From Niastella koreensis GR20-10 (GTDB lineage: Bacteria > Bacteroidota > Bacteroidia > Chitinophagales > Chitinophagaceae), in assembly GCF_000246855.1 (NCBI RefSeq), contig NC_016609.1, positions 4,464,001 to 4,528,000 on the forward strand: a stretch of DNA of 64,000 nucleotides. Reading direction: 5' to 3'. The notes under the pieces are model-generated. The model was not told the DNA's origin, searched no databases, and worked only from the letters and a program-made list of their open reading frames with translations. Each line of letters begins with the position of its first letter. Within the stretch, counting starts at the first letter, position 1. Positions 2,446 through 61,933 of this stretch are shown here, piece after piece. The translations under genes were made by a program, and so were the position numbers.

Positions 2446-2494
2446 CTGAAAAAAAGCTGAAAGCTATAAGGCGAAAGCTTAAAGCCGAAAACGC

Positions 2495-2536
2495 TGAACT
2501 CTGAACTCTGAACTTTGAACTTTGAACTCTGAACTG
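2495..2536. repeat. Heptad array, six TGAACTN units
   Basis: Six copies of TGAACTN begin at 2495, 2502, 2509, 2516, 2523 and 2530, an exact 7-bp period, inside the spacer between the iorA- and iorB-like genes. The preceding 50 bp (AAGCTGAAAGC, GCGAAAGCTTAAAGCCG) is built from related words. It has no obvious complementary arm and would be transcribed within the operon. Confidence 0.9.
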
Positions 2537-2558
2537 TTTACTTATCAACCAGTCACCA

Positions 2559-4691
2559 ATGAAACAAAGTACAACTAATATATCCCGCCGGCATTTTCTA
2601 AAAATCACTTCTTTAGCTGGCGGCGGCGTGTTGTTTGGTTTTGAAATGCTGGCCAATGTAACGGCTGAAACGGTGGCCGATGCGCCGCTCTTCTCGCCCA
2701 ATGCTTATCTCTCTATCGATCCACAGGGCATTGTTACTTTGCTGGCGCCTAACCCCGAGATCGGGCAGGGCGTAAAAACTTCTATTCCCATGCTGCTGGC
2801 CGAAGAGCTGGATGTGGACTGGAATAAAGTAGTAGTTACCCAGGCGGTTTTTGATAAAGAAAAATATGGTAACCAGTCTGCCGGGGGTAGCGGCGCTATT
2901 CGTGGCCGGTACGAACCCATCAGAAAAGCCGGTGCTGTTGCCCGGCAAATGCTGGTAGCCGCTGCTGCACAAACCTGGAATGTTCCCGAGCAGGAATGTT
3001 CAACCGAAAATGGTTTTGTGCTGCACAAAGCCAGCGGTAAAAAACTCAGCTATGGCGAACTGGCTTCCAAGTCAGCCACCATGCCGGTTCCGGATAACAT
3101 CAAACTAAAAGACCCGAAAGATTTCAAGATCATCGGGAAGCGCATTAATAACGTAGACAATAAAGGCATTCTTACCGGCAAACCTTTGTTCGGAATAGAT
3201 ACCCGCCGCGAAGGCATGCTCTTTTGTATGGTATCGCGCCCGCCTGCCTTTGGCAAGAAATTAAAATCATTCGACGATACCGAAACACGCAAAATACCCG
3301 GGGTAAAGAACGTGGTGCGTACCGACACGGTAGTAGCGGTGCTGGCCACCAATACCTGGGCCGCTAAAAAAGGCCGCGATGCCCTGAAAGTTGAATGGGA
3401 AGATGCCGGCAAACTGGAAAGCACCATGGAACATGTTGCCGCTTTTAAAACCCTGATCCAGCAAAAAAGCGATAAACCCGACAGAAATGACGGGAATGTA
3501 GAGCAGGCGTTGAGCAGCGCCAAAAAAGTGATAGAAAGCGTTTATGAAGTGCCGGTGCTGAGCCATGCACCCATGGAGCCCATTAACTATTTTGCCGATG
3601 TAAAGGATGGTAAAGCCGATCTGTACGGCCCTACCCAGGTACCGGGTAATGCCATCAGAGATGTAGCCAAAGCACTGGGCATTGCTGAAGCCAATATTAC
3701 ACTGGGCATGCCCCGGCAGGGTGGCGGTTTTGGCAGAAAGTTACGTGCTGATAATGTGGTGGAAGCTGCCCAGATCTCCGCCGCCGCCAAAGCTCCCGTG
3801 CAAATGCTATGGACACGCGAAGATGATATGCAGGGCGATTTTTACCGGCCCAATGGAATGTATAGATACCAGGCCGCCATTAACGCCAATAACGAACTCG
3901 ATGGCTGGTACCTGAGCGCTGTTGCGTTGAATGCCGGCCGTGCAGCCGCATCGGAAAACTTCCCTGCTGGTGCACTGGCCAATTACCGGTGCGACAGCCA
4001 TGGCGTTCAATCGAATATTCAAACCGGTCCGTGGCGGGCCCCTACGCATAATGCCATTGGTTTTGCAGAACAAAGCTTTCTCGATGAAATAGCACATGAA
4101 TTAAAGAAAGATCCCGTAGCCTTCCGCCTCGAACTGCTGGAGAAAGCCAAAACCAGCCCGGTTGGCAAAGTGAGTTATGATATTGAGAAATTCAAAAGCG
4201 TTATAAACCTGGTAAGCAAAATGAGTAACTGGGGTAAAAACACGCCAGGCCGGTTTAAAGGCTTTGCTGCGTATTACTCCTTTAACACCTATGTAGCCGA
4301 AGTGGCTGAGGTTTCTGTAGTAAATGGCAAACCCAAAGTGCATAAAGTATGGGCAGCTGTAAACTGCGGACAGGTAGTAAACCTCAGCGGCGCCGAAAAC
4401 CAGGTGCAGGGCGCTATTGTGGATGGCCTGGGCCATGCCTGGTATTCTGAAGTCACCTTTGATAAAGGCGCGGTACAACAGAAAAACTTCAATGCCTATA
4501 AAATGATGCGGATGGCCGATGCGCCACCGGATGTAGAGGTGCAGTTTGTGGCTACCAATGAAGCGCCTACTGGTTTGGGCGAGCCTGCGTTGCCACCGAT
4601 TGCCGCTGTGGTTTGTAATGCCATTTTCGCAGCTACTGGTAAAAGAATCAGGAAATTACCATTTGGCAATGCACTAGCACAAAAGGCATAA
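2559..4691 (+). CDS. iorB: Molybdopterin-binding large subunit (isoquinoline 1-oxidoreductase beta-like), Tat-exported
   Basis: A 710-residue catalytic subunit of the xanthine oxidase superfamily in the IorB/aldehyde oxidase group. It starts with a twin-arginine signal (SRRHFLKITSLAGGGVLFGF, residues ~9-28), so the complex probably works outside the cytoplasmic membrane. Molybdopterin-contact motifs include GIGQGVKT-like PEIGQGVKTSIPMLLAEEL near residue 68, the AGGSGAIRGR loop, MPRQGGGFGRK (~385) and the C-terminal GLGEPALPPIAAVVCNA carrying the presumed catalytic Glu. It is paired with the small subunit upstream. No cofactor maturation genes (XdhC/CoxI-like) are nearby, so these must be elsewhere. 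Confidence 0.9.
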   Translation: MKQSTTNISRRHFLKITSLAGGGVLFGFEMLANVTAETVADAPLFSPNAYLSIDPQGIVTLLAPNPEIGQGVKTSIPMLLAEELDVDWNKVVVTQAVFDKEKYGNQSAGGSGAIRGRYEPIRKAGAVARQMLVAAAAQTWNVPEQECSTENGFVLHKASGKKLSYGELASKSATMPVPDNIKLKDPKDFKIIGKRINNVDNKGILTGKPLFGIDTRREGMLFCMVSRPPAFGKKLKSFDDTETRKIPGVKNVVRTDTVVAVLATNTWAAKKGRDALKVEWEDAGKLESTMEHVAAFKTLIQQKSDKPDRNDGNVEQALSSAKKVIESVYEVPVLSHAPMEPINYFADVKDGKADLYGPTQVPGNAIRDVAKALGIAEANITLGMPRQGGGFGRKLRADNVVEAAQISAAAKAPVQMLWTREDDMQGDFYRPNGMYRYQAAINANNELDGWYLSAVALNAGRAAASENFPAGALANYRCDSHGVQSNIQTGPWRAPTHNAIGFAEQSFLDEIAHELKKDPVAFRLELLEKAKTSPVGKVSYDIEKFKSVINLVSKMSNWGKNTPGRFKGFAAYYSFNTYVAEVAEVSVVNGKPKVHKVWAAVNCGQVVNLSGAENQVQGAIVDGLGHAWYSEVTFDKGAVQQKNFNAYKMMRMADAPPDVEVQFVATNEAPTGLGEPALPPIAAVVCNAIFAATGKRIRKLPFGNALAQKA

Positions 4692-4718
4692 TGCAATTTT
4701 CCCTATTTTTACGACGAT

Positions 4719-6795: not shown

Positions 6796-7408
6796 AACTA
6801 ATTGCTTTTATTTGCTTTGAACAAATCTTAAAAAACCGTACCATCCGCGGTGCAAGCCTTGCAGGTAAAAAAATACCCAGGCTAATCAGTGTTGTGTGCC
6901 GGGAATTTTGAGTTAACAATGAGCCATCGGTGGTAAGCTAAGTGGCATCCATTGAAATTTTTGGGCAATACTTTCAAACCTTGAAGTACAGCTGGCTAAC
7001 CTGGTGATCAACGCTCAATTACTATGACAAGTAAAACCTGATGGGGCCAATGTTCGCTGTTGATTAGTTGTAGTTACCAATAAATAAGCATAGAGCCAAA
7101 ATCGCGATAAATTCCATTATAGTACTACAGTACTATAATGACCAATTATAGTATTCCAGTACTATATTTATTGATTATAGTACTGTAGCACTATATTGAC
7201 TTTTTTCTACAAACTTGCAATAACGGTAACACCACTTGCAAACCAATGTTTCAACTCATATCAATTCCAGCTAATATCAGATTTGTACTGGAGGTCGGTT
7301 CAAATCTGTACTGACTTGACAATAATCAAATTAACTAAACGAAATTGTCCATAACAAAGGGCACCATGGGTAAAGTGAGTATATTCGGCGCCATATTGCT
7401 AACTGACT
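6796..7408. other. Long divergent intergenic region with phased palindromes
   Basis: About 610 bp between the protoglobin gene (minus) and a secreted orphan (plus). It holds no plausible gene; a short plus-strand frame from 7345 is out of frame with, and overlaps, the better gene at 7409. The striking content is the trio of palindromes at 7117-7196. A further short near-repeat, CAGATTTGTACTG / CAAATCTGTACTGAC, lies at about 7268-7316. Unlike most gaps here it has no 7-bp word array. Confidence 0.7.
7117..7196. promoter_or_regulatory. Three phased palindromes, candidate operator cluster
   Basis: Three 22-bp near-palindromes of the form TTATAGTACT-nn-AGTACTATAA start at 7117, 7146 and 7175, exactly 29 bp apart. 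The first is almost a perfect dyad; the second and third carry single changes per arm (AGTATT, AGCACT). Dyads of this size and regular spacing suggest binding sites for a dimeric repressor that can bind cooperatively. Which of the two divergent genes is controlled, and by which protein, cannot be told. Confidence 0.65.
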
Positions 7409-8152
7409 ATGAGACGACTGTTTATAAAGTGGATGCTGCTTGCCGGTTCACTACTTCCCCTGGCGCTTGTTGCCCAGCATATAAGCCTCGACAGATTATT
7501 ATCGTTGCAACGATCCTCTTTGATTACCATCCAGGATTATTTGGAAACCAGCACCTGGAAACTGAAACGCATAACCTCCCTGAGCGAAGCAGACAGCAAC
7601 GTGTTTCAATCTCACACGCGGTATTTTTTAGATTCCCTGTCACTGGCCCGTAAACAGGAAAGCGGCTCCCTAAACACCAGCGGCAGTTATTATATGGCCA
7701 GGTTGCTGGAAGGCACGAAGCTGGATGCGCCGGCCTGGGTGGAATACCTGAGTCAGGTAGAAACGAGGCTCAGCCCCACTACCCTGTTCACCAATTCGTT
7801 CACCATCACCATGCCGAAGTACTTTTTGTTCAACGCCATTAATTTAAGGCTGGCAGAATATACCAGGCGCACGTTTCACCATGCCCTGCGTTTTAGCTTT
7901 GGCGATGGCGACACCTTCAAATCGATCATTACTGAAATTGGTATTCTGAATTTACCCGATAGCGTTTGTTATATAATGTACAACAAACCTTTAATAACCC
8001 GGGTATACAAACTGGCCGACCAGGTAATCAACCTCGTCACCATCGATACCCCTACGCCCACTTATTCACTCGAAATTTATGCCCGCGCCGATTATGAATA
8101 TTTACACGGGAATGAGCAGGAGTTGAAAGGGAAGGTTGATTATATTCAGTAA
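7409..8152 (+). CDS. Secreted protein of unknown function
   Basis: A 247-residue protein with a clear signal peptide (MRRLFIKWMLLAGSLLPLALVAQ). The mature part is mixed alpha/beta and charged, with no motif I recognise. The start at 7409 gives the signal peptide directly at the N-terminus. It sits downstream of a 600-bp regulatory-looking region with three phased palindromes and converges on the glutaminase-like gene. Orphan; probably periplasmic or envelope-associated. Confidence 0.75.
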   Translation: MRRLFIKWMLLAGSLLPLALVAQHISLDRLLSLQRSSLITIQDYLETSTWKLKRITSLSEADSNVFQSHTRYFLDSLSLARKQESGSLNTSGSYYMARLLEGTKLDAPAWVEYLSQVETRLSPTTLFTNSFTITMPKYFLFNAINLRLAEYTRRTFHHALRFSFGDGDTFKSIITEIGILNLPDSVCYIMYNKPLITRVYKLADQVINLVTIDTPTPTYSLEIYARADYEYLHGNEQELKGKVDYIQ

Positions 8153-8184
8153 GTTGACGGGTTAACAGGTTAACACGTTGACAG
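8153..8184. repeat. Octad array, GTTGACGG-type words
   Basis: Four words beginning GTT lie at 8153, 8161, 8169 and 8177 (8-bp period): GTTGACGG, GTTAACAG, GTTAACAC, GTTGACAG. The array starts on the base after the stop codon of the upstream gene, between convergent genes. Since GTTAAC is self-complementary, the array can fold. Nearly the same array is at 27598-27627. Confidence 0.88.
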
Positions 8185-8223
8185 GTAAAATGAAGCATTG
8201 GTGCGTAAAGTAGGTGGTTGACC

Positions 8224-17691: not shown

Positions 17692-17893
17692 TTTGGCTTT
17701 AGCCTTTAACCTTTTGGCTTTAACCCGCTTTCCTCACTTCAACATTCAACATTGGATATTCAATATTCAATATTTTGCATTCACCTTTATCAACCCTATC
17801 AACTTCGTCAACGCTATCAACCTCCTACATCATGCTCCAATGCTTCCCCTTACACGTCAACGCGTTAACGCGTCAACTTGTAAACCTGTCAAC
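17692..17893. repeat. Composite word array at the 3' end of thiH
   Basis: Four blocks in series: five heptads from 17692 (TTTGGCT, TTAGCCT, TTAACCT, TTTGGCT, TTAACCC); six heptads from 17741 (AACATTC, AACATTG, GATATTC, AATATTC, AATATTT, TGCATTC); 9-bp words with AAC at 17792, 17801, 17810 and 17819; and 8-bp words with AAC at 17859, 17867, 17875, 17883 and 17891. The last block enters the thiH coding region and supplies its stop. The first ~115 bp are present in inverted orientation at 24377-24497. Confidence 0.92.
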
Positions 17894-19005
17894 ACAACAT
17901 CCCAATCTTTCCAAACCGGCTCGTAACCAACAGAAGAAATAACGCGGGCCATTTCGGCAGGACTCCGCTCGTCCGCTATTTCAAATTGCTCCAGCGATTC
18001 GGGTTCTACCGCATAACCGCCCGGATTGGTTTTTGATCCCGCACTGATGGAGGTGATGCCTAATTGAATTACATGGTCCCTGAAGCGGGGTAATTCGCGG
18101 GTAGATAATGACAGTTCCACTTCCTGGTTGAAGATGCGCCAGGCGCAGATCAATTGAACCAGTTCGCGATCAACCATTTCAACCTTTGGTTCCAATCCGC
18201 CGGAAAAAGGCCGTAAGCGGGGGAAAGAAATGCTGTATTTTGTTTGCCAGTACGTACGTTCAAGGTATTGCAAATGCAAGGCAGTGAAAAAAGAATCGGT
18301 GCGCCAGTCTTCCAAACCTATCAGGATGCCCAAACCGATCTTATGCACCCCTGCCCTGCCCAGGCGGTCGGGTGTTTCAATGCGATATTGAAAATTTGAC
18401 TTCTTCCCTTTGGGGTGATGCTTTTTGTAATCTTCCCGGTGATAGGTTTCCTGGTACACCAGTACCGTGTGCAACCCTTCCGCGATCAACTCCCTGTAAT
18501 CGGCTTCATCAAGCGGCTGAACTTCCATAGAGATATGCGCAAACTGTTTCTTCAACAGGTTGATGGCGTTTTTAAAATACGGTACATGCACCGTATGATT
18601 GGCTTCACCGGTTACCAGCAGCACATGCTCATACCCCATCGATCTGATGGCTGTTGCCTCCTGTACGATTTCGGCAGCAGACAAGGTTCTGCGGCGCACC
18701 TTGTTATCCAAACTGAACCCGCAATAGGTACAAATATTATTGCACTCATTGCTGAGGTACATGGGTACATACATCTGTATCGTTTTCCCGAATCGTTGCT
18801 GGGTGAGCTGTTGGCTCAACCGGGCCATAGGCTCCAGGTAAGCGGCTGCAGCCGGTGAGATCAGGGCCATAAAGTCATCCAGCGTTCTGCTTTGCCGGCC
18901 CAGCGCAGCTTCCACATCGGCAGGCGTTTTACTATAAATGCGCTGCTTAACCTCGTCCCAGTTGTATTGATCGAAAATATTGATAAAACTATCCATGGTG
19001 TTCAT
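17857..19005 (-). CDS. thiH: 2-iminoacetate synthase ThiH
   Basis: A 382-residue radical SAM enzyme that cleaves tyrosine to make dehydroglycine for the thiazole ring of thiamine. The cluster-binding motif is [10 protein letters not shown] (C-x3-C-x2-C), followed by the family's [11 protein letters not shown] and [11 protein letters not shown] segments. Last gene of the thiamine operon; its start overlaps the end of thiG by 17 bp, indicating translational coupling. The final residues GLQVDALTR and the stop codon are encoded by an 8-bp word array, so the natural C-terminus seems to have been extended by the repeat. Confidence 0.95.
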
Positions 19006-19762
19006 CTAAAAAAGCCGTTAAAGGACTACTTGCAATAGCGGTGTTCAATGGTTTGGCTAAGCGGGCTTCGTAAGCTATTCGCCCTGCTTCTACAGCCATT
19101 TTAAAAGCAGTGGCCATTTGCACGGGCTGGCCGGCCACAGCAATCGCCGTGTTCACCAATACCGCATCCGCGCCAATCTCCAGGGCTTTGGCCGCATCTG
19201 AAGGAGAACCTATTCCCGCATCCACTACTACCGGCACATTGCTTTGTTCTATAATAATTTCTAAAAAGTCAATTGTCCTCAGGCCTTTGTTGCTGCCTAT
19301 AGGTGAACCAAGCGGCATTACTGCGGCCGCGCCGGCTTCTTCCAGGCGTTTACACAAAACCGGATCGGCATGAATATAGGGCAGCACCACAAAACCCATC
19401 TTTACCAGCTCTTCGGTTGCCCGTAAGGTTTCAACCGGGTCGGGCATCAGGTATTTGGGATCGGGATGTATTTCCAGTTTCAGCCAGTTCGTTTGCAACG
19501 CTTCGCGCGCCAGTTGTGCGGCAAAGATGGCTTCTTTGGCGGTACGCACACCCGAGGTATTGGGTAGTAGATTGATGTGTTTGTGCTGCAGGTGACGTAA
19601 AATATCATCCTGCGGATTGTTCATATCAACCCGTTTCAACGCTACGGTAACCAGTTCTGAACCGGATGCCAGCAACGCCTCTTCCATAGCTTCGGTTGAA
19701 CTGAATTTTCCCGTTCCGGTAAATAAACGGGAGTTGAATACTTTATTTGCTATAGTTAACAT
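18989..19762 (-). CDS. thiG: Thiazole synthase ThiG
   Basis: A 257-residue TIM-barrel enzyme that joins deoxyxylulose phosphate, dehydroglycine and the ThiS thiocarboxylate into thiamine thiazole. Typical segments: [14 protein letters not shown] at the start, [59 protein letters not shown] and [31 protein letters not shown]. Overlaps thiH at its end. 114 bp separate it from thiE upstream, filled by a word array. Confidence 0.96.
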
Positions 19763-19794
19763 GTAAGATTATTTCGTGAATTATGAATCAGCCT

Positions 19795-19872
19795 AAAGGT
19801 TAAAGCTTAAAGGCTAAAGCACTTCAATGTGTGCTTTTTGCTTTTAGCTTTAGGCCTTCACCTTTCAGCCTT
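19795..19872. repeat. Heptad arrays forming a hairpin between thiE and thiG
   Basis: Four words from 19795 (AAAGGTT, AAAGCTT, AAAGGCT, AAAGCAC) and six from 19831 (GTGCTTT, TTGCTTT, TAGCTTT, AGGCCTT, CACCTTT, CAGCCTT), all 7 bp apart. The two arms are near complements (AAAGC against GCTTT), so the transcript would form a long slippable stem inside the thiamine operon mRNA. Confidence 0.9.
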
Positions 19873-19876
19873 TTCC

Positions 19877-21830: not shown

Positions 21831-21841
21831 ATTAAAAAGCT

Positions 21842-21956: not shown

Positions 21957-21957
21957 A

Positions 21958-23868
<1,911 letters not shown>

Positions 23869-24143: not shown

Positions 24144-24224
24144 ACCTACGTTTTTTATCACTTCAGGGAATGAACATGCAGCAAAAGAGAAATGAAAGAA
24201 ATGAAAATAAAAGAAGACTTTCAC

Positions 24225-40951: not shown

Positions 40952-40977
40952 TGTTGTTTTGTCAATCTAACGGGCAG

Positions 40978-41054: not shown

Positions 41055-41057
41055 AAC

Positions 41058-42302: not shown

Positions 42303-42309
42303 GATCCTG

Positions 42310-42384: not shown

Positions 42385-44586
42385 GTATTTAATCTCGTAA
42401 TCTTTTCCTTGCTCAACAGTTACTTCATAAACGTTATTTCCTTTGCTTACGATAGTTGCTGTTTTAGAAGAAGGTTTTGATTGACTTTTAAACTTAAGCG
42501 TACCAGTTCCTATTGCACCTTTTATTTTTATTTGGGTAGTGCTGCAATATACATTGATGTCGCCATGCGGTGTGGGCACTTTGCCCTCCATCCATTGCAA
42601 GCCGCCGAGTACAGGTTCTGCTGTCCAGGTGGCATATCCGGGTGAGGTGGGTTGTACTCCTAAATAGTATTTACCCAGCAGGTAAATGGGACTGGCGCCC
42701 CAGGCATGACAAAGACTTTTGCCGAATTGACGGCCATACATGGAGTAATGGTCGGCGCCTGATTTGGAAGGATTGTATTCTTCCCAGAAGGAGGTAGCGC
42801 CGGCATTCAGCATACCGCCCCAGTAGTTTTTCATTTCATTCAACACATATTTCTGTTCACCCATTACGCACAAGGCTTCCAGTTCATAGAAACGCATGTA
42901 CGGGGTAGTGATCTTTTGAATATTGTCGTTCAGCAACACGTTCTTTTTTACCGCCTGCTTTTGCTCTTCATTAAAATAATTAAAGAAGATGCCAAACATA
43001 TTGGCATACCTGGTTACATTATCGGTTGGTTTTCCATCAACGCGGCTGTGTACCAGGGCGTGTTTGCTTTCGTTCCAGTAAACGGAGAACAGTTTCGCGC
43101 GCATATCGGCAGCCAGTTGTTTGTACAGCGCTTCGTTCTTGCTGTCATTCACCATATTGGCGCAAAGCGCCATGGTTTCCAGACTGCGGCAGAAAAGCAT
43201 TTGTTCAAAGCTCACTTCGCCTTTTTTGCTCAAACCAGGCGCCCAGTCAATAAAGATCCAGTCGCCGCTCAGTCCCTGCATCATGCCATCTTTATTGCGG
43301 CGGCTGAGGCAATAGTCCATCATGCTTTGCATGCGGGGGTAGAACTGCTGAATAAAGGTTTTATCGCCGGTATACCGGTACAGGTCATAGATGCCCAGGA
43401 ACCAGTAAAAAGTATAATCCATGATGGTGTTGATGTGGCTGGTAACGGGGTCTTTACCACGCAGCGCCATCAACGTACGGTTTACCGTAGGCACATCGTA
43501 AAACAGGTAATAGTTCATCAGGTAGCTTTGGTACGCATCGCCACTCCAGATCCAGCGATCGCGTTTGATGCCATCGATGAAGAATTCCCGGGTACACAAG
43601 TGCATGGTGTAAGCCGCTACATCCCATATTTTATTGATGCCGGTATCGGAACAACGGAAAGCACCACGGTTTTCAACCGGCAGGTATTCATATAACATCG
43701 AAACGGAATCCAGGGTAACGCCACCTTCCGCCTGCACATTTACAAAGCGGAATGCTTTGGTGAGCACCATTACAGAATCCATTTTTGAATCGGCATTCAC
43801 TTCTACCCTGTCCAGCGTTTCGCAGGAGCCGGTAGACAACGCTTCTTCTTTTGATTCGCCATAATACAACGACACCTTGCCTTTACCCTGTAAGCCATGC
43901 AAGCGGATATAGCCGAAGGTTTCTTTACCAAAATCTACCAGTAACGACCCGTTGTTTTTGGTGGCAGTTACAGCCGATTGGGGTTTCACTGCCAGTTTAA
44001 ATGCGGAAGGACGCTGTGCAGGCTCATTGAAATTCCAACTGCCGGCGTTCAACCAAACAGTGGCTGACACATCTGAGGTTTTACCTGTTTCATCAATCCA
44101 TTCTTTATCTTCGAACGTCACCAGCCACGACGAGTCGGTAGCAAAGGTTTTCCCTTTGATATAGATAGCAGGCACGGTACCCGCACTGTATACTTTTACA
44201 TTGATGCGGTGTTTGCCGGCAGGAATGGTTACGCGGGAGGGCGTTCCTTCATAGCCCTTTCCATCGAGCTTGAGAATATATTTTCCTTCTACATATACAT
44301 CGATGTCTTCGGGTTCGGTCAATTCCACATCCTTGTGAAAATCCATCAGCACATAATGGCCATCCAGTTTCCAGAATGGTGGAAAGAAAGAACCGCGTTC
44401 TGTACGCCGGTTCTGCATATTGTTGGCCAGCCAGATCTCGAAATCCCCGGGATACCAAATCCAGGTAGCCTTGGGGGGGGCTGGTTGTGCCTGCGTGGTG
44501 CAGGCGAATAATACTAATGCTATCCAAACAGTGTGTTGCAATATGGCATGTCTGCAATTCATTCCGGAAAGATTTATAAGATGCAA
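42376..44586 (-). CDS. Secreted GH78-like alpha-L-rhamnosidase
   Basis: A 736-residue exported six-hairpin glycosidase; signal HTVWIALVLFACTTQAQ. Order: N-terminal beta modules (KATWIWYPGDFEIWLANNMQNRR, DVYVEGKYILKLDG), then FRCSDTGINKIWDVAAYTMHLCTREFFIDGIKRDRWIWSGDAYQS, which is the position of the GH78 acid motif (usually DCPQRxER) in a variant form, then AGATSFWEEYNP and a C-terminal beta module. The variant DGIKRDRW defines a subgroup, so rhamnosidase activity is probable, not certain. ATG at 44586 lies 3 bp past the symporter stop; 44562 is an alternative. Confidence 0.87.
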   Translation of the reverse strand: MHLINLSGMNCRHAILQHTVWIALVLFACTTQAQPAPPKATWIWYPGDFEIWLANNMQNRRTERGSFFPPFWKLDGHYVLMDFHKDVELTEPEDIDVYVEGKYILKLDGKGYEGTPSRVTIPAGKHRINVKVYSAGTVPAIYIKGKTFATDSSWLVTFEDKEWIDETGKTSDVSATVWLNAGSWNFNEPAQRPSAFKLAVKPQSAVTATKNNGSLLVDFGKETFGYIRLHGLQGKGKVSLYYGESKEEALSTGSCETLDRVEVNADSKMDSVMVLTKAFRFVNVQAEGGVTLDSVSMLYEYLPVENRGAFRCSDTGINKIWDVAAYTMHLCTREFFIDGIKRDRWIWSGDAYQSYLMNYYLFYDVPTVNRTLMALRGKDPVTSHINTIMDYTFYWFLGIYDLYRYTGDKTFIQQFYPRMQSMMDYCLSRRNKDGMMQGLSGDWIFIDWAPGLSKKGEVSFEQMLFCRSLETMALCANMVNDSKNEALYKQLAADMRAKLFSVYWNESKHALVHSRVDGKPTDNVTRYANMFGIFFNYFNEEQKQAVKKNVLLNDNIQKITTPYMRFYELEALCVMGEQKYVLNEMKNYWGGMLNAGATSFWEEYNPSKSGADHYSMYGRQFGKSLCHAWGASPIYLLGKYYLGVQPTSPGYATWTAEPVLGGLQWMEGKVPTPHGDINVYCSTTQIKIKGAIGTGTLKFKSQSKPSSKTATIVSKGNNVYEVTVEQGKDYEIKYKA

Positions 44587-46176: not shown

Positions 46177-46190
46177 CGTTGTAATACGCT

Positions 46191-46218
46191 GAACGCCGAA
46201 CGCTTAACGCTGAACGCG
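46191..46218. repeat. Heptad array, GAACGCT words
   Basis: GAACGCC, GAACGCT, TAACGCT, GAACGCG at 7-bp spacing, between the Gfo/Idh/MocA gene and the symporter. Same words as 15354-15381 and 27558-27592. Confidence 0.85.
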
Positions 46219-47322: not shown

Positions 47323-47398
47323 GTTTTAAGTTTTTTGTTTAAAGTTTAAGGTCCTCACTTTCTCATTCTTCATTTCTCATTTCACATTTTTAATTTCC
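47323..47398. repeat. Heptad arrays at the 3' end of the beta-helix gene
   Basis: GTTTTAA, GTTTTTT, GTTTAAA, GTTTAAG from 47323, and CATTCTT, CATTTCT, CATTTCA, CATTTTT, AATTTCC from 47364, all 7 bp apart. The stop of the minus-strand beta-helix gene lies inside the second block. The arms are not strongly complementary. Confidence 0.85.
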
Positions 47399-49260
47399 TT
47401 GAAGGATTCTTCCAATCCGGCTCTGCTCTTTATACTATCCGCTACCTTCGGTCCATTGTTCTCCCAGGTATTACCGGGGCCATTGGAGTTCTTCAGGTAC
47501 TTTTCTTCTTCGGTCCAGTTATCTTTTAACTGAATGTAGGAACTACCTTCATCGAGATAGAGATAGAAGAAATGGTGCGGATCATGCGCATAAGGCGCTT
47601 TCAAAACGGTGTGCACTGCGTTCTCACTGATTACCGAACCGGGCATGGCCGATAAGGTATAGATACCACTTACATCATACATATGTTTAGCATAATGATG
47701 CACCAGGTTGGCGTGAATGCGGTTATCCTTCATGGCGTTGATGGTTTTCGTCCAGCCCCAGCCAACACAAATACCGCTGTATGGCAGATCGCTCAGTTCG
47801 TTGTGATCGATATTGATGCCCTGCACATAACCGGCGCTGATACCCACACAACCCCAGTCTTCATTGGCGCAATCGGTAATAAAACAATTGCTGATGGTAA
47901 GCTTGCGGCACAACTCCCGCGCATCGGCAGGGGCATAGGGTAAGTGCGTTTCAAAACCAGGATCAGAGAAGGTACCGGCCTGGATAGCGGTACCTGCAAT
48001 ATCATGAAAGGTGCAACCAACAATGGTATCGAGTTGCGTTCCTTTAATATAATCGAGACCGGTAGCAGCCATGTGTGAGAAATTGCAGCGTTCAAAACCG
48101 GTGTTGTTTACAAACACTAATTCTACCCCACCCGGCTGACGGCCGATCCAGCCCTGGTTTTCCAGTCCTTTTTTATCAGGCGTACCAGGGATCTTTAGTT
48201 TGTAAGCATCTAATAAAAACATCCCGGCCTGTAAAGGCACGTGTCCGGCCTGCGAAGGACGCAGCCAGGTGGAATATTTAAAGTCGATGCCTTTGAAATA
48301 TACATGTGATACAGGCTCATCAATTGTTCCTTCCACGCGGGCAATGGTTTGTAAATACGGCGCTACCACCTGTGCAATGCTCATATTCTCATTGTTGCGT
48401 GGCCAGTAGATGAGCTGTTGTTTCTTTACATCCAAATACCATTCACCAGGCTCATCAAGAAACTCGACAGCATTGGTGAGAAAGAAAGCCGAGTTACCGG
48501 TTTTCTGTGAGATCCAGGGCGCAGGCCAGGGATGCTCTGACTGAATACGGCTTTCGGGCTGACAGAACCTCAACAAAGCGCTGTCACCCTTTACTGTAAC
48601 CGATTTTATGCGTAAAATAGCGATAGCCCACCATTGATGAATAACCATTTCCAAACCGGCCGCTTTTTCCCAGCCAGTTGTTTTTGGTTTGGGGATCCAG
48701 CATTGCTGGGTTTCATGGTTCCAGGAAAGAATACGGTTCATGCTATCGGCATTGCGATCGCGGGCGCGAGTGGCCTTTTGATCGTTTACCCATAACTGAC
48801 GAAAATCGAGCAGCCGGCCATTTATAACAGGCGCATCGGCTACCCAAACTTTTCCCTGTGCCACAGCAGGCAGACCAGGAATTTTCTCCGTGGCTTTTCG
48901 CCAGCCATTTACCGATAAGCCGCCACTGAACACCGGCTTTGCGCCAGGCGCTGCTTCAATTACAGTCGGGCTCTCAGGCGTACCCGAATCTTCAGGCCGC
49001 ACGAACAGCGGTTCATCAAATGCGTACACACCGTTCTCTATAATAATATGAATTCCATTCGCAATAGTAGGATCTTTTAACCGGCGCAATTCCCTTGCTT
49101 TACGCAAAGCCATAGCTACGGTAGCCATGGGCTTTTCTTTTGTTCCGGGATTTGCATCCGCACCACCTGGAGCTACATAAATGTCGGCAGCCTGTACAGC
49201 CATACCCAAAAACCATGTAAATAAAGTGCAGGCAATCGTGTATTTAAATAGTCTTTTCAT
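47377..49260 (-). CDS. Secreted right-handed parallel beta-helix protein
   Basis: A 627-residue exported protein. Signal to about residue 24 (FLGMAVQA), then the common beta-helix opening DIYVAPGGADANPGTKEKPMATVAMALRKARELR. From ~300 it shows repeated turns such as GIDFKYSTW, VFVNNTGFERCNFSHMAATGLDYIKG, TIVGCTFHDIAGTAIQAG, LTISNCFITDC and INIDHNELSDLPYSGICVG. Beta-helix enzymes of this kind act on polysaccharides (pectin lyase, polygalacturonase or alpha-1,3-galactosidase types). No catalytic set can be fixed, so the activity is open. 19 bp downstream of the TIM-barrel gene. Confidence 0.88.
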   Translation of the reverse strand: MKRLFKYTIACTLFTWFLGMAVQAADIYVAPGGADANPGTKEKPMATVAMALRKARELRRLKDPTIANGIHIIIENGVYAFDEPLFVRPEDSGTPESPTVIEAAPGAKPVFSGGLSVNGWRKATEKIPGLPAVAQGKVWVADAPVINGRLLDFRQLWVNDQKATRARDRNADSMNRILSWNHETQQCWIPKPKTTGWEKAAGLEMVIHQWWAIAILRIKSVTVKGDSALLRFCQPESRIQSEHPWPAPWISQKTGNSAFFLTNAVEFLDEPGEWYLDVKKQQLIYWPRNNENMSIAQVVAPYLQTIARVEGTIDEPVSHVYFKGIDFKYSTWLRPSQAGHVPLQAGMFLLDAYKLKIPGTPDKKGLENQGWIGRQPGGVELVFVNNTGFERCNFSHMAATGLDYIKGTQLDTIVGCTFHDIAGTAIQAGTFSDPGFETHLPYAPADARELCRKLTISNCFITDCANEDWGCVGISAGYVQGINIDHNELSDLPYSGICVGWGWTKTINAMKDNRIHANLVHHYAKHMYDVSGIYTLSAMPGSVISENAVHTVLKAPYAHDPHHFFYLYLDEGSSYIQLKDNWTEEEKYLKNSNGPGNTWENNGPKVADSIKSRAGLEESFKEIKNVK

Positions 49261-49279: not shown

Positions 49280-50155
49280 CTATTGAAAGATCGATTTCAA
49301 ATACGCTACATTGGCGCCGAAATTCCTTTTTACGTTTTTAGGATCAGAAGCATCGCGTGAACGCTCTATCACCAGCCAGCCTCTGTAACCTATTTTATCC
49401 AGCGTTTGTTTTACCTGGTTCATATTAATAGTTTTATCGTTTTGCAGCCATACACTGTCATGGTTGGAGCTATGGATCTGACACATATGGCTACCCAGGA
49501 TCTCCATTTCTTTGTACAGGTCTCTTCCGTTTGTAATGGCGTTCGAGAAGTTGAAATAGATCTGAATAGCTGGTGAACCAATATCGCTTAACAGTTTTAA
49601 TTCATCGGTAGCGCTTAACGAAGTTTCAATCCCAATGATCACCCCGGCCGCTTCCGCCAGCTTGCCTACTTCTTTCAGGCGGGCAACAACGGCTGGTCTC
49701 TTTTCAGGAAATTTGGTCAGGTCACCCTGAATACCCAATGGCAGAAAGCCAATTTTCACATTCATCTTCTTCATGGTGTTGATGCAATCCCCCACCGCTT
49801 TCACCGCAGTTGGCCGCTCAGGAAATGATTGGGCATAAAAGCCAGTCATTGCCAATGAAGCTATTTCCAGGTTGTATTCTTTGGCTTTGTCGAGGAACAA
49901 AGTACGGATGGTATCATCGGCCAGTTTGTTATCGAACGTTTCGCGATCGCCCATACCGCCCATGTCAACTTCCACGCCATCGGCGCCTAATTCTTTTGAC
50001 AATTGAAAGGCACTGAGTTTTTGTCTCTTCAGGATCATAAGATCAACTACGGCAATCTTATACCGTCCATCTGTCTTCACCAGCTTTTGTGCAGACACTC
50101 TATAGCCCGACAGTAATGTTACTAAAAGTGCGAATGTGAATACTTGAAACTTCAT
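49280..50155 (-). CDS. Exported sugar phosphate isomerase/epimerase-like TIM-barrel protein
   Basis: A 291-residue xylose-isomerase-like TIM barrel. Metal-binding carboxylates lie in GADGVEVDMGG, VIIGIETSLSA and GWLVIERSRD. It begins with an export signal (FTFALLVTLLSGYRVSAQ), unusual for a family whose substrates are mainly cytoplasmic, although exported members are seen in Bacteroidota. One described member of the broader family decarboxylates 3-oxo-isoapionate, but an exported enzyme more likely acts on free sugar or on oligosaccharide-derived keto sugars in the periplasm. Function not assigned. Confidence 0.85.
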   Translation of the reverse strand: MKFQVFTFALLVTLLSGYRVSAQKLVKTDGRYKIAVVDLMILKRQKLSAFQLSKELGADGVEVDMGGMGDRETFDNKLADDTIRTLFLDKAKEYNLEIASLAMTGFYAQSFPERPTAVKAVGDCINTMKKMNVKIGFLPLGIQGDLTKFPEKRPAVVARLKEVGKLAEAAGVIIGIETSLSATDELKLLSDIGSPAIQIYFNFSNAITNGRDLYKEMEILGSHMCQIHSSNHDSVWLQNDKTINMNQVKQTLDKIGYRGWLVIERSRDASDPKNVKRNFGANVAYLKSIFQ

Positions 50156-50182
50156 ATAGTGAGTTTAACTTTATCGTGAATC

Positions 50183-50450
50183 GGTCCCGGCTGAGCCGGG
50201 ATGAATCGGCAAACGGCAAACGGCAATCGGCAATCGAGCCTTGCGATAATATTCTACCTCTTAACTTCTCAGCAGGCCTCCCCCCGCCCCCCTCCGGTGG
50301 AGGGGGAGTTGGGCAACCTCGCGACAATATTTATCTGCCTTTATTTCTCAACTCCTCCTTCCTGTCTTCAACCTTGTCAACCTGTTAACTCGTCAACGTT
50401 CTTCCCTTTATCAACTCTATCAACGCCATCAACTCTATCAACTATTTTTT
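50183..50450. repeat. Mosaic repeat region: heptads, GC-rich palindrome, octads and nonads
   Basis: The whole 286-bp gap is repeats. A CCCGGCTGAGCCGGG palindrome (50186-50200) precedes four heptads from 50207 (CGGCAAA twice, CGGCAAT twice); CTTAACTTCTCAGCAGGCC precedes the palindrome CCCCCTCC-GGT-GGAGGGGG (50288-50306) and GGGCAACCTCG; then AAC words at 8-bp spacing (50379, 50387, 50395) and 9-bp spacing (50413, 50422, 50431, 50440). It shares its parts with 37376-37526 in a different order. Confidence 0.93.
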
Positions 50451-51827
50451 CTCAAATAGTTTCTTTAAATCATCATAACTATGGATCGCATTGGCCGGTA
50501 ACTTCTCCCCATGATCCCCGAAGACATACAAGGCGTTCTCCGATTCTATGGTCACCTTGCTTTCATCGATCTTACCGGTTATTTTATCTTTTACGGCAGA
50601 CATGTCTAAATGAAAATGTTTGCCGATAAATTCATACAGGGCAGTACGTTTATTAATTCCGTAATCGTGTTTTTCCAACGGCAGATGCACGTTCTCCACC
50701 TCGCCGGTTTTTCCATACAACCCATACGTTCTTTGCAGGAACGGAAACTCGATTTCGGGCACATGTGCCGTCCAGTCGCCACCATCAGACACTACCAGTT
50801 GCGGCCGGGGCGCCGCCATGGAAGCAATCTCCACATTGTTGGTGCCGCCTCCACATAAATGCACCGGCATGCCGCTTTCACACGGGCAGCCGCCGCTGTG
50901 GAAGGAGGAAACCATCACCACCGGCACGCTTAATTTTATGCGGTCGTCCAGGGCTGTTACCAGCATGGTATGACTGCCCCCACCCGATCCGCCACTGATG
51001 GCTACGCGGCTGGTATCTGCTTCTTTCAGTTTCAGCATATAGTCCAGGATACGAAACGCATTTAACGTTTGTACCGTCATGGCCAGACTGCGGCGGTGAT
51101 CTTCGCTTTTAAACTGTAACAGCGATTCGCCCCAGGCAAACAGATCATAACTGATAGCCATACAACCCATGCGGGCCAGTGAGGCGCAGCGGTACTGGCA
51201 ATCGGGGCGGTACCGGTGTTTCTCCCAGTGGCCATCAGGACATAACACCACGGGGATCTTTCCTTTTATTTTTGCCGGTTTGTATATAGATGCGCAGGTA
51301 TACACCCCGGGCAATACTTCAAATGCAATGTTCTCTACAGTATACCCATCCATTTTGCGCACCGGCGTTGTAATGGGTTTTGATGCCGGGGCCGGCGGAA
51401 CAGGCGATAACTGCAACGCTTCATACATGCAGGCACGCAGCTCCGTTTTACGTTTTTCCCAGCTGGCCACATCATTGTATAACGTACTCAGGTAATCCAG
51501 TTGCGCCTTACCTTCTTCTACTGTTTTTAAATGATATTGAAAGGCACTGATCTTATAACGTTTGTCGCCTTCTTTGCTGAACGACAGGTCCTGCGAAGCC
51601 AGCACATTGGCGAGTGTTTTCTCCACATCGGGGCGAAAACGCCAGCGGGCATACGTTACCCAACGATCGTTCACCATGCCGTCGCTATACCGGATCTTGA
51701 TGCCGTACTGGCTTTCAATTTCCGTTAACACCTGTTTCAACGGCTCCCGGTAGGCATCGTCAGAAGTCTGGCTTCGGCTGTCCACCCAAATCGTGAGGCA
51801 ACAAATGAGATAAAATAGTTTGCGCAT
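50442..51827 (-). CDS. Exported alpha/beta-hydrolase (acetyl xylan esterase-like) with an N-terminal STN-like domain
   Basis: A 461-residue exported protein. After the signal (MRKLFYLICCLTIWVDSRS) comes an STN-like stretch, LTEIESQYGIKIRYSDGMVN ... VEKTLANVLASQDLSFSKEGDKRYKI (~30-95), a module normally found in TonB-receptor plugs and sigma-regulatory proteins. The hydrolase follows: VVLCPDGHW, MGCMAISYDLFAWGES, and the nucleophile elbow SRVAISGGSGGGSHTM, with a late His in EKHDYGINKRTALYEF. Predicted to remove acetyl or methyl ester groups from pectin-type glycans. The domain combination is uncommon; a role for STN as a substrate- or wall-binding module is a guess. Confidence 0.82.
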   Translation of the reverse strand: MRKLFYLICCLTIWVDSRSQTSDDAYREPLKQVLTEIESQYGIKIRYSDGMVNDRWVTYARWRFRPDVEKTLANVLASQDLSFSKEGDKRYKISAFQYHLKTVEEGKAQLDYLSTLYNDVASWEKRKTELRACMYEALQLSPVPPAPASKPITTPVRKMDGYTVENIAFEVLPGVYTCASIYKPAKIKGKIPVVLCPDGHWEKHRYRPDCQYRCASLARMGCMAISYDLFAWGESLLQFKSEDHRRSLAMTVQTLNAFRILDYMLKLKEADTSRVAISGGSGGGSHTMLVTALDDRIKLSVPVVMVSSFHSGGCPCESGMPVHLCGGGTNNVEIASMAAPRPQLVVSDGGDWTAHVPEIEFPFLQRTYGLYGKTGEVENVHLPLEKHDYGINKRTALYEFIGKHFHLDMSAVKDKITGKIDESKVTIESENALYVFGDHGEKLPANAIHSYDDLKKLFEKK

Positions 51828-51846
51828 AATTTGTTTTATTATATTG

Positions 51847-51947
51847 TCAGTAGTCAGTTGTCAGTTGTGAGTGGGTTCCCGATTGTTCGGAAGGCTGAAT
51901 AATGGCGAGCTCACTCACAACTCACAACTCACAACTCACAACTCACT
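51847..51947. repeat. Heptad-array hairpin between symporter and esterase genes
   Basis: Left: TCAGTTG at 51854 and 51861, then TGAGTGG. Right: CTCACAA at 51914, 51921, 51928 and 51935, then CTCACT. Exact 7-bp periods; GTTGTGAGT pairs with ACTCACAAC. Confidence 0.92.
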
Positions 51948-51948
51948 A

Positions 51949-53526
51949 CTAAACTGCCTTCAAAGTAACTTTCGCTTCTCTCTTCTCGTTCCTTCTCGCT
52001 TCCTTCCAGCCAGAGTACAGGAGATTTTTATCCAGTACCGGTTTGGGGAAGAACAAACTGGCCACATAACCCACGCTAATCACTACCAGGTGACTGTACA
52101 CACCGAGCATCAGTTTATCGTGACCAAAATTATATTCACCGAAATTGAGTAACAGGTGTTTATTGGCGCCTATTCCAATTTGGGTAGACGTCAAAAACGC
52201 ATAAGACGTAAACAGGATACAGGCAATAATGCCGATGTTAATACCCTGTTTGTTGGCGCGGGCGCTGAAAATACCCAGCAGGAAAATGCCTACTATACCC
52301 CCGGAGAAGATGGCATACAGCGTAAACACAATGCCCAATACGCCTTCACTGCCGGCATTGATATACAAACAGCCAATACCCATGGCAATCAAACCAGAGA
52401 TCACCACGGTCCATCTGCCGGCTTTTAAATAAGCATGGTCAGAAAGGCCGCGACGCATTTTCTTATAATAATCTTCTACACCTACAGCAGCCAGACTGTT
52501 CAGGTCGGCACTCAAACTGCAAATGGCAGCTGAGATCATGGCCGACAGGATCAGGCCTCTTACCCCAACGGGTAACCGGGTGCCAATAAAATAAGGGAAT
52601 ACCTGTTCGGGATGCAGGCCTTGCGGCAGCGGATTCTGTTTATAAAAAACAAACAAAGCCGTACCTATGAACATGAACAACATCCAAACGGGAACGGTGA
52701 GCAAAATACCCATGAGTGAAGCCCGGATGGCGCCTTTGTCGGTTTTTGCCGTTAAATAACGTTGTACTACGGTTTGGTCGGTACCATATTTCTGAATGGC
52801 ATAAAACAAGCCATTGATAGCCATTACCAGGAAGGTTACCCGGGTAAGATCGGCATCATAGGGACCAAACCCGGTGTGGCCATTGGCTTTTGCCACCGCC
52901 CAGATCTCCGAAATACCACCATGGGTGGAGAACAGGATAACGGTTAAACAAGTAATACCAGTGGCAAACAGCATGAAACCCTGGAATACATCGAGCCAGA
53001 TCACCGCTTCCATGCCACCCATTAAATTCACGCCAATGATAATCAACCCTACCACCATAATCATGATCATGGTGTTGCCACCGATCATACTATCCAACGC
53101 CAATGCCAGTAAGAACAGCACAGTGCCCATACCGGAAAATTGCCGCAGCACAAAGGCCAGCGAGCTGTAATAGCGGGCAAAGGCGCCAAAACGTCTTTCA
53201 AAATATTCGTAAGTACTTAACCCAATTACTTTACGGTATAACGGAACTATAAACCAGATGGTGCCTAATAATACAATGGGCACCATCAACCCCTGCACCA
53301 ACAAGATCCAGTTACTGGTAAACCCTGTACCGGGATATGCCAGGAAAGTAACGCTACTGATCAGTGTCGCCAATAACGACATACCTATTGCCCAGGATGG
53401 CACCCTTCCATGTGCCAAAAAGTAGGACTTAAAAGAATCCTGTTTTCGCGCAAACCGGTACCCTACATATAATGTCACCACCAGAAAACATATGATGATG
53501 ATATAATCCAATACTGATAAATTCAT
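51949..53526 (-). CDS. Sodium:solute symporter (SSS family), second copy
   Basis: A 525-residue inner-membrane transporter. Family marks: LDYIIIICFLVVTLYVGYRFARKQDSFKSYFLAHGRVPSWAIGMSLLATLISSVTFLAYPGTGF near the N-terminus and MISAAICSLSADLNSLAAVGVEDYYKKM with the Na+-site serines. It resembles sialic-acid/sugar-acid transporters of the SSS group more than the other symporter here. It lies 30 bp downstream of the DUF1537/PdxA2/DapA/ADH genes in the same direction, so it most likely carries their substrate. Confidence 0.92.
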   Translation of the reverse strand: MNLSVLDYIIIICFLVVTLYVGYRFARKQDSFKSYFLAHGRVPSWAIGMSLLATLISSVTFLAYPGTGFTSNWILLVQGLMVPIVLLGTIWFIVPLYRKVIGLSTYEYFERRFGAFARYYSSLAFVLRQFSGMGTVLFLLALALDSMIGGNTMIMIMVVGLIIIGVNLMGGMEAVIWLDVFQGFMLFATGITCLTVILFSTHGGISEIWAVAKANGHTGFGPYDADLTRVTFLVMAINGLFYAIQKYGTDQTVVQRYLTAKTDKGAIRASLMGILLTVPVWMLFMFIGTALFVFYKQNPLPQGLHPEQVFPYFIGTRLPVGVRGLILSAMISAAICSLSADLNSLAAVGVEDYYKKMRRGLSDHAYLKAGRWTVVISGLIAMGIGCLYINAGSEGVLGIVFTLYAIFSGGIVGIFLLGIFSARANKQGINIGIIACILFTSYAFLTSTQIGIGANKHLLLNFGEYNFGHDKLMLGVYSHLVVISVGYVASLFFPKPVLDKNLLYSGWKEARRNEKREAKVTLKAV

Positions 53527-57841: not shown

Positions 57842-57870
57842 AATTATATTCTTAGTTCTTTTAAGTTCCA

Positions 57871-57943
57871 GTTCTTAAGTTATTAGGTTATCAAGTTATT
57901 GGGTTAACTAAAGAACTTACGAACTCAATAACTTAATAACTGC
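57871..57943. repeat. Octad-array hairpin between GH78-BNR and ADH genes
   Basis: Left: GTTCTTAA, GTTATTAG, GTTATCAA, GTTATTGG, GTTAACTA from 57871. Right: four units with AAC at 57914, 57922, 57930 and 57938. Exact 8-bp period and complementary arms; shares words with 40978-41054. Confidence 0.93.
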
Positions 57944-61782: not shown

Positions 61783-61873
61783 CTTTCTCAATTTTTTATT
61801 TTCCATTTTTCCCTTCTTCGTTTCCATTATTAACTCTATCAACCCTGTCAACTCCATCAACTCCCTGCTCAAC
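61736..61873. repeat. GC-rich palindrome and nonad array at the start of the GH78-BNR gene
   Basis: CCTCCCCC-GGT-GGGGGAGG (61736-61754) lies inside the first codons of the GH78-BNR frame and is followed by ACAGCCTCG, like the CAACCTCG after the other copies. Words with AAC follow at 61832, 61841, 61850 and 61859 (9-bp period). Confidence 0.88.
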
Positions 61874-61880
61874 TCGTAAG

Positions 61881-61927
61881 TGACCTGTCAGGTTCGGATT
61901 TCGACGCAAACGAAACCTGACAGGTCA
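61881..61927. terminator. Perfect 14-bp hairpin after the GH2 gene
   Basis: TGACCTGTCAGGTT (61881-61894) pairs perfectly with AACCTGACAGGTCA (61914-61927) around a 19-nt loop, 6 bp past the GH2 stop. A T-run follows on the plus strand only, so for the minus-strand gene it is a hairpin without a U-tract. Confidence 0.6.
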
Positions 61928-61933
61928 TCTTTT

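Follow-up and report, generated by a model that had tools for sequence, protein, structure and literature searches.

The stretch of DNA considered in this work (the window) comprises 64,000 nucleotides, bases 4464001-4528000 of the single 9,033,684-bp contig of Niastella koreensis, and its closest named relatives are those of Niastella soli, N. yeongjuensis, N. populi and Niastella sp. OAS944. The gaps between its genes hold arrays of short words repeated with a period of 7, 8 or 9 bp, which mostly begin beside stop codons, follow a strand polarity and, at the same place in related species, are frequently made of different words. Arrays were scored as local runs of self-match at a fixed lag within the gaps between called genes, which came from a home-made dicodon caller whose stops are reliable and whose starts are less so. 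The arrays of the window, with their strand in brackets where one applies, are the following.

2454-2485: left arm in gap 2446-2558, with a different word, AAAGCNN
2490-2535 (-): 7-bp array of AACTCTG/TGAACTN, right-type arm of gap 2446-2558
8153-8186 (+): 8-bp array of GTTRACAG, beginning at the stop of gene 7433-8152 in a convergent gap
17738-17822 (-): 7-bp TTCAATA array (17738-17774) and 9-bp TATCAACNN array (17788-17822), within a layered composite
17852-17893 (-): 8-bp GTTRACNN array crossing the stop codon of gene 17857-19005
19794-19851 (.): paired 7-bp arms, TAAAGGT and TGCTTTT
21842-21964 (.): paired 7-bp arms, GTTGCAG (21842-21869) and CCTGAAA/AAACTTT (21916-21964), past the stop of gene 21958-23844
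24370-24612 (.): layered composite of GTTGACNN, GTTGATAAAGG, GAATATT, a GTTGAAGTGAAG linker, GGTTAAAGCC, a centre, and arms of GCTTTNN and TGCCNNN; the core is found again elsewhere in the genome
27598-27627 (.): 8-bp array of the self-complementary word GTTRACNN, in a convergent gap
31821-31852 (-): 7-bp CAAACNA array in a convergent gap, adjoining the stop of gene 31853-33877
37484-37526 (-): 9-bp array within the 3' end of the bile-acid-symporter (SBF)-family gene 37470-38840
38850-38919 (.): paired 7-bp arms, CAGGTTA (38850-38883) and ACCTGNA (38897-38919)
40977-41061 (.): paired 8-bp arms, GTTATTAG (40977-41003) and AACTTAAT (41007-41061), up to the stop of gene 41058-42302
42309-42384 (.): 7-bp GTTCTNT array (42309-42340) and 8-bp CTTGTTGC array (42350-42384), with the second array crossing the stop of gene 42376-44418
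46186-46217 (-): 7-bp ACGCTGA array, missing from N. soli and N. yeongjuensis (31-bp gap)
47354-47397 (-): 7-bp CTCATTT array spanning the stop of gene 47377-49203
50204-50236 (+): 7-bp AATCGGC array in gap 50039-50441
50406-50443 (-): 9-bp TATCAACTC array at the stop of gene 50442-51827
51846-51950 (.): paired 7-bp arms, GTCAGTT (51846-51872) and ACTCACA (51913-51950)
57870-57941 (.): paired 8-bp arms, AGTTATTA and AACTTAAG
61828-61864 (-): 9-bp TATCAACTC array

The words named in the original prediction, which had been made from the letters of the window, were located: TGAACTN at 2490-2535, GTTGCAG at 21842-21869, CTCACAA at 51913-51950, AACTTAAT at 41007-41061 and TATCAACTC at both 50406-50443 and 61828-61864. 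As claimed, the arrays of the window keep to gaps longer than about 60 bp, all 16 array gaps being at least 62 bp long and none of the six gaps of 20-59 bp holding one. In the window, 16 of the 37 gaps of at least 20 bp hold a segment at lag 7, 8 or 9 scoring at least 9 (two more have just short word pairs). The claim that arrays occupy nearly every gap was too strong, since a larger sample of the genome has them in 191 of 940 gaps. Their location is mostly, if not strictly, intergenic, as the 9-bp array at 37484-37526 sits inside the end of a called coding sequence.

That these periods exceed chance was established in a smaller sample, composed of the window and 40 evenly spaced 20-kb stretches of the same genome (505 gaps, 137.6 kb). 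Segments scoring at least 14 numbered 56 at lag 7, 21 at lag 8 and 7 at lag 9, against a mean of 0.0 in five dinucleotide shuffles, while lags 2-6, 10, 12 and 13 gave 0 or 1 and lag 11 gave 3; between lags 14 and 30 the larger counts fell at multiples of 7 and 8. At a score of 10 the counts at lags 7, 8 and 9 were 109, 45 and 14, compared with 0.4, 0.4 and 0.8 across ten shuffles. Coding DNA yielded 5, 0 and 1 segments at the same lags, so that the 7-bp tandem period, together with those of 8 and 9, prefers non-coding DNA. Eight other Niastella genomes, sampled solely in the region orthologous to the window, gave 117, 47 and 10 segments at a score of 12 (a single shuffle gave 0), and 125 of their 283 gaps hold arrays. 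The intergenic 7-, 8- and 9-bp repeats of the original prediction are thereby confirmed: shuffled DNA does not produce as many, and they are found along the genome and in other Niastella genomes. A smaller excess was also seen at lag 11 in the larger sample of N. koreensis (16 segments scoring at least 12), which multiples of 7-9 do not explain.

This larger sample comprised the window and 80 stretches (1.66 Mb) with 940 gaps of at least 20 bp, 191 of which hold an array. Among codirectional gaps these are 121 of 617, among convergent ones 45 of 148 and among divergent ones 25 of 175. Only one of 141 codirectional gaps shorter than 60 bp has one. When gaps were compared by length class, arrays were fewer in divergent than in codirectional gaps below 500 bp (below 60 bp there are almost none in both), and above 500 bp the divergent gaps were not poorer (9 of 36, against 10 of 53 codirectional).

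The arrays show a tendency to start at the stop codon. Of 153 array edges, 89 fall in the interval from -15 to +9 nt around its end, whereas the 84 edges on the start-codon side are scattered from -10 to 149 nt, and in 105 codirectional gaps of 60-400 bp the array starts at a median of 6 nt past the stop and ends 70 nt before the next start. The same stop-side peak is present in the eight other genomes, with 55 of 111 edges at -10 to +9. The last base of the stop codon is often part of the word: TAG|TT occurs at 17 of 90 array-adjacent stops and at 26 of 632 array-less ones (p = 2.9e-6), and in the other eight genomes at 10 of 54 against 5 of 104 (p = 0.009). At gene 21958-23844, all five species with a detected array have TAG|TT, and the four without one have TAA (two), TAG|TC (one) and TAG|TT with a sub-threshold array (one). 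Some arrays extend into the coding end of the gene, as in the SBF-family gene 37470-38840 (-), where the 9-bp array encodes a repetitive C-terminal tail that differs in each of six species compared and is absent or different in five relatives. The idea that the arrays act as translation stop elements was dropped, several words being, by inspection, without a stop codon.

Automatic clustering of the words gave 24 groups with at least two arrays, the main ones of which were sorted by hand into 12 families, so that this genome has not one main consensus word but about a dozen. The 7-bp families are AGTTCNN, GGTTNCA, AAGCNNN, GAATNNN, GGCANNN, TGAGTNN, CAATNNN and GCGTTNN, the 8-bp families are GTTRACNN, GTTNTTAR and TAATNNGN, and the 9-bp family is GTTGAYANN. 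No conserved palindromic unit of about 20-65 nt was found across these many words, cores being common to some composites only. Within the composites there is a preferred layering, with GTTRACNN and GTTGATANN outside GAATNNN and the latter outside AAGCNNN; the order of GAATNNN and AAGCNNN is one-sided (9 to 0), and the two orders of GTTRACNN and GTTGATANN, seen 9 and 13 times, are not.

If W denotes the G-richer reading of a word, the arrays show a polarity that is strong, although not absolute: the G-rich word points away from the gene and into the gap, and past the centre comes its complement, also where the two arms are made of different words. Among pairs of words no more than 250 bp apart in one gap, 211 run from W to complement and 22 from complement to W, 158 having both words on one strand; restricted to pairs of different words, the counts of these two orders are 120 and 15. 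Single arrays obey the outward rule in 24 of 26 convergent and 9 of 13 divergent gaps, and among codirectional single arrays the share lying within 20 nt of the stop is 23 of 34 in sense and 2 of 30 in antisense orientation. The word families and the W orientation were picked by eye from the same data; the GC skew of the sense strand is a test independent of both. Its mean is +0.32 for arrays whose start is less than 20 nt past the stop (n = 66; positive in 77%) and -0.27 for those that start at least 50 nt from it (n = 81; positive in 23%; p = 1.4e-12), arrays at intermediate distance being excluded from the comparison; array-free gaps have a skew of about 0. Counted as word tokens, the polarity in the eight other genomes is 79 to 24. 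The two-arm loci of the original prediction do exist, but a pair of one word and its own complement accounts, by the word patterns, for 58 of 154 array gaps of 60-400 bp.

The comparison of related species was made in a syntenic block of nine Niastella genomes, in which 36 orthologous gaps (slots) were comparable in at least four genomes. Arrays concentrate in particular slots (sum of squares 264; simulations, with gap length uncontrolled, averaged 58 and reached at most 119), and the clustering persisted when occupancy was permuted inside length bins, using non-divergent alleles 60-500 bp long (26 slots, 134 alleles), giving 56.7 against 25.0 with 0 of 5000 shuffles as high. For the 70 of 91 array alleles whose words the patterns recognise, a word family is common to two species at the same slot in 40 of 110 pairs and at different slots in 408 of 2023, which suggests that some words were probably inherited and that most differ. 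In the gap between genes 39620-40951 and 41058-42302, for instance, N. koreensis has AGTTATTA, N. soli has GTGAGTTG, N. yeongjuensis has GTTAACAG plus GTGAGTA, N. populi has AACGCAG and OAS944 has GTTGCAG. The gap between genes 18989-19762 and 19877-20500 measures 0-11 bp in three species, holds a plain hairpin in N. soli and in five species extends to 103-212 bp, with arrays resembling AAGCNNN or AGTTATTN, a variation which indicates that arrays come and go as additions between neighbouring genes. No clear target-site duplications were seen by eye at insertion points in orthologous gaps, whose flanks have diverged. A second gene-end hairpin family, GTGTGCCACG...CGTGGCACAC and variants, was noticed by eye in slots that hold word arrays in other species, namely the L092 gap after 16400 and the N. 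soli and N. populi gaps orthologous to 19763-19876, 21831-21957 and 38841-38930.

The choice of words varies widely among species. Runs of three AGTTCNN units in tandem number 291 in N. koreensis, 465 in N. populi (G100), 150 in G071, 7 in N. soli and 3 in G104; they are present at least once in all 10 genomes of the genus, in 7 of 98 sampled genomes of the family (two of which are Niastella) and in 37 of 395 of the phylum, where many of the matches listed are perfect single microsatellites. GTTRACNN has 377 occurrences in N. koreensis, where its reversed pattern has none, and is present in 6 of the 98 family genomes (two of them Niastella). GTTACCN numbers 157 in G098, 142 in G104, 4 in N. 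koreensis and 0 in N. soli, counts to be read knowing that its reversed control, which resembles another word, is itself abundant in some genomes. Occurrence in the genus alone was rejected as inexact, because similar arrays appear at low density in other Bacteroidota (G325, G379, G188 and G038), in stretches mostly picked for holding a word match. Arrays are present in five of six loci titled Niastella, the one without them being L103, a metagenome-assembled genome of 58% identity, and among 74 loci not so titled L118, L135 and L140 have at least two lag-7 or lag-8 segments. Degenerate heptamer arrays built from similar words (TGAACTN, GAATTAC, GAAGACT) were also observed in the distant Bacteroidota loci L199-L201, L204, L207-L209, L118 and L135, some of them, by eye, directly at stop codons.

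The copying of modules between gaps of one genome is well supported. The 101-bp composite piece 24430-24530, scored over no more than 40 candidates in N. koreensis and in four relatives, matched at least 43 sites in N. koreensis, with identities ranging from 100% (over 101 bp) to 88% (over 32 bp); in any one relative the matches were no more than six, and shorter. Unrepeated linkers recur along with the arrays, and we infer from this that the composite spread by copying. In addition, locus L086 carries two inverted copies of about 220 bp, roughly 3.3 kb apart and 93% identical, and one GCTTGCA unit among their differences gives a direct view of the change of a 7-bp unit. The slippage or copying mechanism offered as a possible origin in the original prediction thus gains support from this one-unit difference and from the dispersed modules.

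Based on these findings, we hypothesize that the arrays are mosaic 3'-end elements, similar to the enterobacterial repetitive extragenic palindromic (REP) sequences and bacterial interspersed mosaic elements (BIME), spread by copying plus slippage and with a putative hairpin role at gene ends, a reading to which we would give an even chance. The typical element consists of a G-rich sense array starting from the stop codon, a centre (a loop, an ordinary terminator or a short GC hairpin) and, beyond it, a C-rich array of the complementary type. Elements with just one arm or with two different words are common, and most elements lie in codirectional and convergent gaps. The length of an array would change by whole 7-9-bp units through slippage, as in the one pair mentioned above and presumably in general, and what persists would be what fits at a gene end, whether kept or tolerated. 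A same-word pair could then act as a symmetrical two-way 3'-end hairpin, serving transcripts from both sides, and this hairpin may replace a terminator or protect the mRNA 3' end in the manner of REP and BIME.

The folding of the gaps bears directly on this hypothesis. Same-word pairs fold strongly, with median z of -4.5 in codirectional (n = 31) and -5.4 in convergent gaps (n = 14), each fold class being limited to 45 gaps; for these the slippable RNA stems that had been proposed hold, but not for codirectional single or mixed arrays, and the two arms are alike in word type, not in letters. Sites with a GC hairpin plus T residues occur in 37 of 53 array-free convergent gaps and in 14 of 35 with arrays (Fisher p = 0.008; 13 of 53 and 8 of 35 in shuffled gaps), while a GC hairpin followed by a T-tract, the mark of an intrinsic terminator, is hardly more frequent in paired convergent gaps than in shuffles (6 of 17 against 4 of 17). 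Around the terminator-like hairpins of array gaps, about half of which are expected from shuffles, 30 W arms stand before and 33 complementary arms after the hairpin, 17 are reversed and 1 lies across it. At slots with arrays in at least three species, the array-free alleles, some of which carry sub-threshold arrays, have a z of -1.8 (n = 29) against -0.5 (n = 33) at slots that never hold arrays. The notion that an array stands in for a 3'-end hairpin is thus supported, not proven, and the transcript 3'-end role suggested earlier remains putative, its support coming from the adjacency to stop codons and from the scarcity of ordinary terminators in convergent array gaps.

Several observations weigh against this hypothesis. 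Single or mixed-word arrays are the majority, and their folding in codirectional gaps is hardly above background (median z -1.35, n = 45, against -0.9, n = 45, in array-free gaps; the convergent ones reach -1.87, n = 15). Array-free convergent gaps fold nearly as strongly as those with paired arrays (z -4.5, n = 43), and arrays would therefore be one of several ways to have a hairpin in a convergent gap. Terminator-like hairpins are as frequent in codirectional array gaps (10 of 38 and 16 of 67) as in array-free ones (78 of 291), and the extra structure of array-free alleles at array slots is just marginal (p = 0.05). The letters of two arms are no more similar within a gap (11.9) than between gaps (11.5; Wilcoxon p = 0.91), as judged from 47 of 51 arm pairs in families with at least three pairs, some of which are overlapping arms of the self-complementary GTTRACNN. 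The letters of the arms show no co-variation, so exact pairing has not been preserved, and the view that arms are kept complementary by selection or copied from each other was rejected as a general rule. Finally, a neutral filling of unconstrained DNA accounts for several of the same facts.

This last explanation is the main alternative, and we regard it as possible while leaning away from it. Slippage and copying between gaps would act anywhere, arrays would survive only where nothing else is needed, thus filling the space from the stop codon to the promoter, and hairpins would be a by-product. The sharp edge at the stop with its last base absorbed into the word, the broad edge on the start-codon side, the poverty of divergent gaps, the frequent change of words and the arms without co-variation all speak for neutral filling; filling alone, however, does not give the outward polarity, nor does it account for the depletion of ordinary terminators in convergent array gaps or for the way arrays cluster in slots once gap length and gene orientation are equal. 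A DNA- or RNA-binding protein recognising a core of 4-5 bases every 7-9 bp, for which the arrays would be rows of binding sites, would fit the recurring words with conserved core and variable other letters, an agreement that is partly circular, but some 12 families and three periods in one genome, and words that often differ between species at the same slot, make such a protein unlikely. Fixed core letters were rejected as proof of a binding site, since the entropy of the core is partly circular (the word patterns contain the core) and an unbiased test found mismatches clustered by phase at p<0.05 in just 15 of 70 arrays. It is also conceivable, if quite doubtful, that the words are written rather than produced by slippage alone: a genome-specific process would open or break gaps at hairpin centres, lengthen the two 3' ends by 7-9 nt at a time, favouring G-rich words, and then rejoin them, so that each arm would run outward from its gene, arms could mismatch and the same slots would be filled in a species-specific dialect.

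Three further mechanisms were considered in light of known systems. Loading of Rho on the C-rich arm beyond the centre, stopping read-through in either direction, is very unlikely in our opinion: the far arms are indeed C-rich, G-poor and regularly spaced, but a fixed YC step is missing, by inspection, from about half of the words and the hairpin of paired arms would hide the site. Rho is moreover unlikely as a general cause because the repeats of Nostoc are placed similarly (PMC4692102, in the part drawn on here) and cyanobacteria are said, in the cited part of PMC13289151, to be without Rho. Mobile elements of the REPIN type moved by a RAYT transposase would explain arrays that are dispersed, partly palindromic, mosaic and located at gene ends; this origin is most improbable given that the Y1 transposase family PF01797 matches just twice in the 9-Mb genome, once strongly and once at the cut-off, that no fixed REP palindrome runs across the words, and that the copy pair examined in L086 has ends that fade without a sharp boundary. 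G-quadruplex elements, as proposed for the GGGNATC heptamers of Xanthomonas and Nostoc, have in their favour that the Niastella arrays share the polarity, stop-codon adjacency and inverted pairs described in the cited part of PMC4692102, yet a three-tetrad pattern is present in 2 of 277 arrays on either strand and a two-tetrad one in 46 of 277, which leaves this mechanism strongly disfavoured and scarcely credible. The mosaic 3'-end element stays our preferred reading, at the strength given above.

Other features of the window were recorded along with the arrays. Among Rfam models none reached its gathering score in the window except a thiamine pyrophosphate (TPP) riboswitch (RF00059, 77 bits) at 24211-24305 (-), in the same long divergent gap as the layered composite, so that the arrays of the window match none of these models. 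Upstream of gene 7433-8152, at 7116-7200, a near-palindromic 29-bp repeat is present in about three copies; it has no relation to the word arrays. A separate hairpin family, ACCTGTCAGGT...ACCTGACAGGT, was seen by eye beside gene ends in two Niastella species, at 61884-61930 of the window and in the L091 gap after 15513. The gene run 38931-42302 (-) encodes Asp/Glu racemase-like, sugar-binding/nucleotide-binding kinase-like (SBD_N, NBD_C) and RuBisCO-large-like proteins, and possibly constitutes a sugar acid pathway with a RuBisCO-like protein.

Among the literature matches listed, considered by title and start of abstract, none describes such repeats in Niastella, and this limited search is in keeping with the original prediction, which knew no paired-arm counterpart in Bacteroidota; inverted heptamer pairs of the same polarity have nevertheless been described in Xanthomonas and Nostoc. 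These GGGNATC heptamers (Rehm et al., 2015; PMC4692102), whose function is given as unknown in the part of that report used here, are the closest parallel. According to the same part, they are intergenic with a 7-bp period, under-represented between divergent genes, single or in inverted pairs and variable in length between relatives, and their G-rich strand is sense within 50 bp past the stop, which some overlap, and antisense close to the next start, all of which applies to the arrays of Niastella. Unlike them, the Niastella arrays have some 12 word families, periods of 7, 8 and 9, degenerate letters and layered composites, are almost without quadruplex potential, and change words frequently at orthologous gaps, whereas 83% of the repeats of Xcc are reported in that part to lie at the same place in Xac.

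Direct repeats of TAACTGA have been reported in Beggiatoaceae, cyanobacteria and five Bacteroidetes (MacGregor, 2015; PMC4679880, in the part cited here), which also cites the proposal that 7 nt corresponds to the stretch held by DNA polymerase. These too form intergenic heptamer arrays, and in Gramella and Aequorivita multi-heptamer gaps are set against a shorter gap without obvious repeats in a relative. In the Beggiatoaceae genome, as the cited part has it, one word prevails, almost all copies are direct and mostly just before start codons, with one inverted repeat, and related heptamers are rarely repeated; the words of Niastella differ and stand mostly beside stop codons. The same source refers to a survey in which heptamers were the commonest period of long repeats in most genomes, slippage being proposed (Mrazek, 2007). 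Paired arms, polarity and interchangeable words distinguish the Niastella arrays from such long simple sequence repeats as described there. The heptanucleotide short tandemly repeated repetitive (STRR) sequences of filamentous cyanobacteria are likewise not known to show these features. With REP and BIME they share the location at gene ends, inverted units, mosaic composites and proposed effects near the stop codon (cited parts of PMC12306157 and PMC2817692), REP elements no more than 15 nt from stop codons having been reported to stall ribosomes (PMC12306157, same part); they differ from both in having no fixed palindromic unit, in arms that are 7-9-bp tandem arrays and in the very few genes of the RAYT family.

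What is new with respect to the known heptamers is thus the combination of numerous words that can replace one another, three periods, hardly any potential for quadruplexes, dialects that differ by species and replacement slot by slot. A similar stop-codon adjacency and strand polarity is now present in a third phylum, which makes the rule separable from any one sequence. Slots that hold a plain hairpin, a tight junction or various word arrays in related genomes constitute natural replacement experiments, through which the function and origin of intergenic heptamers become directly testable.

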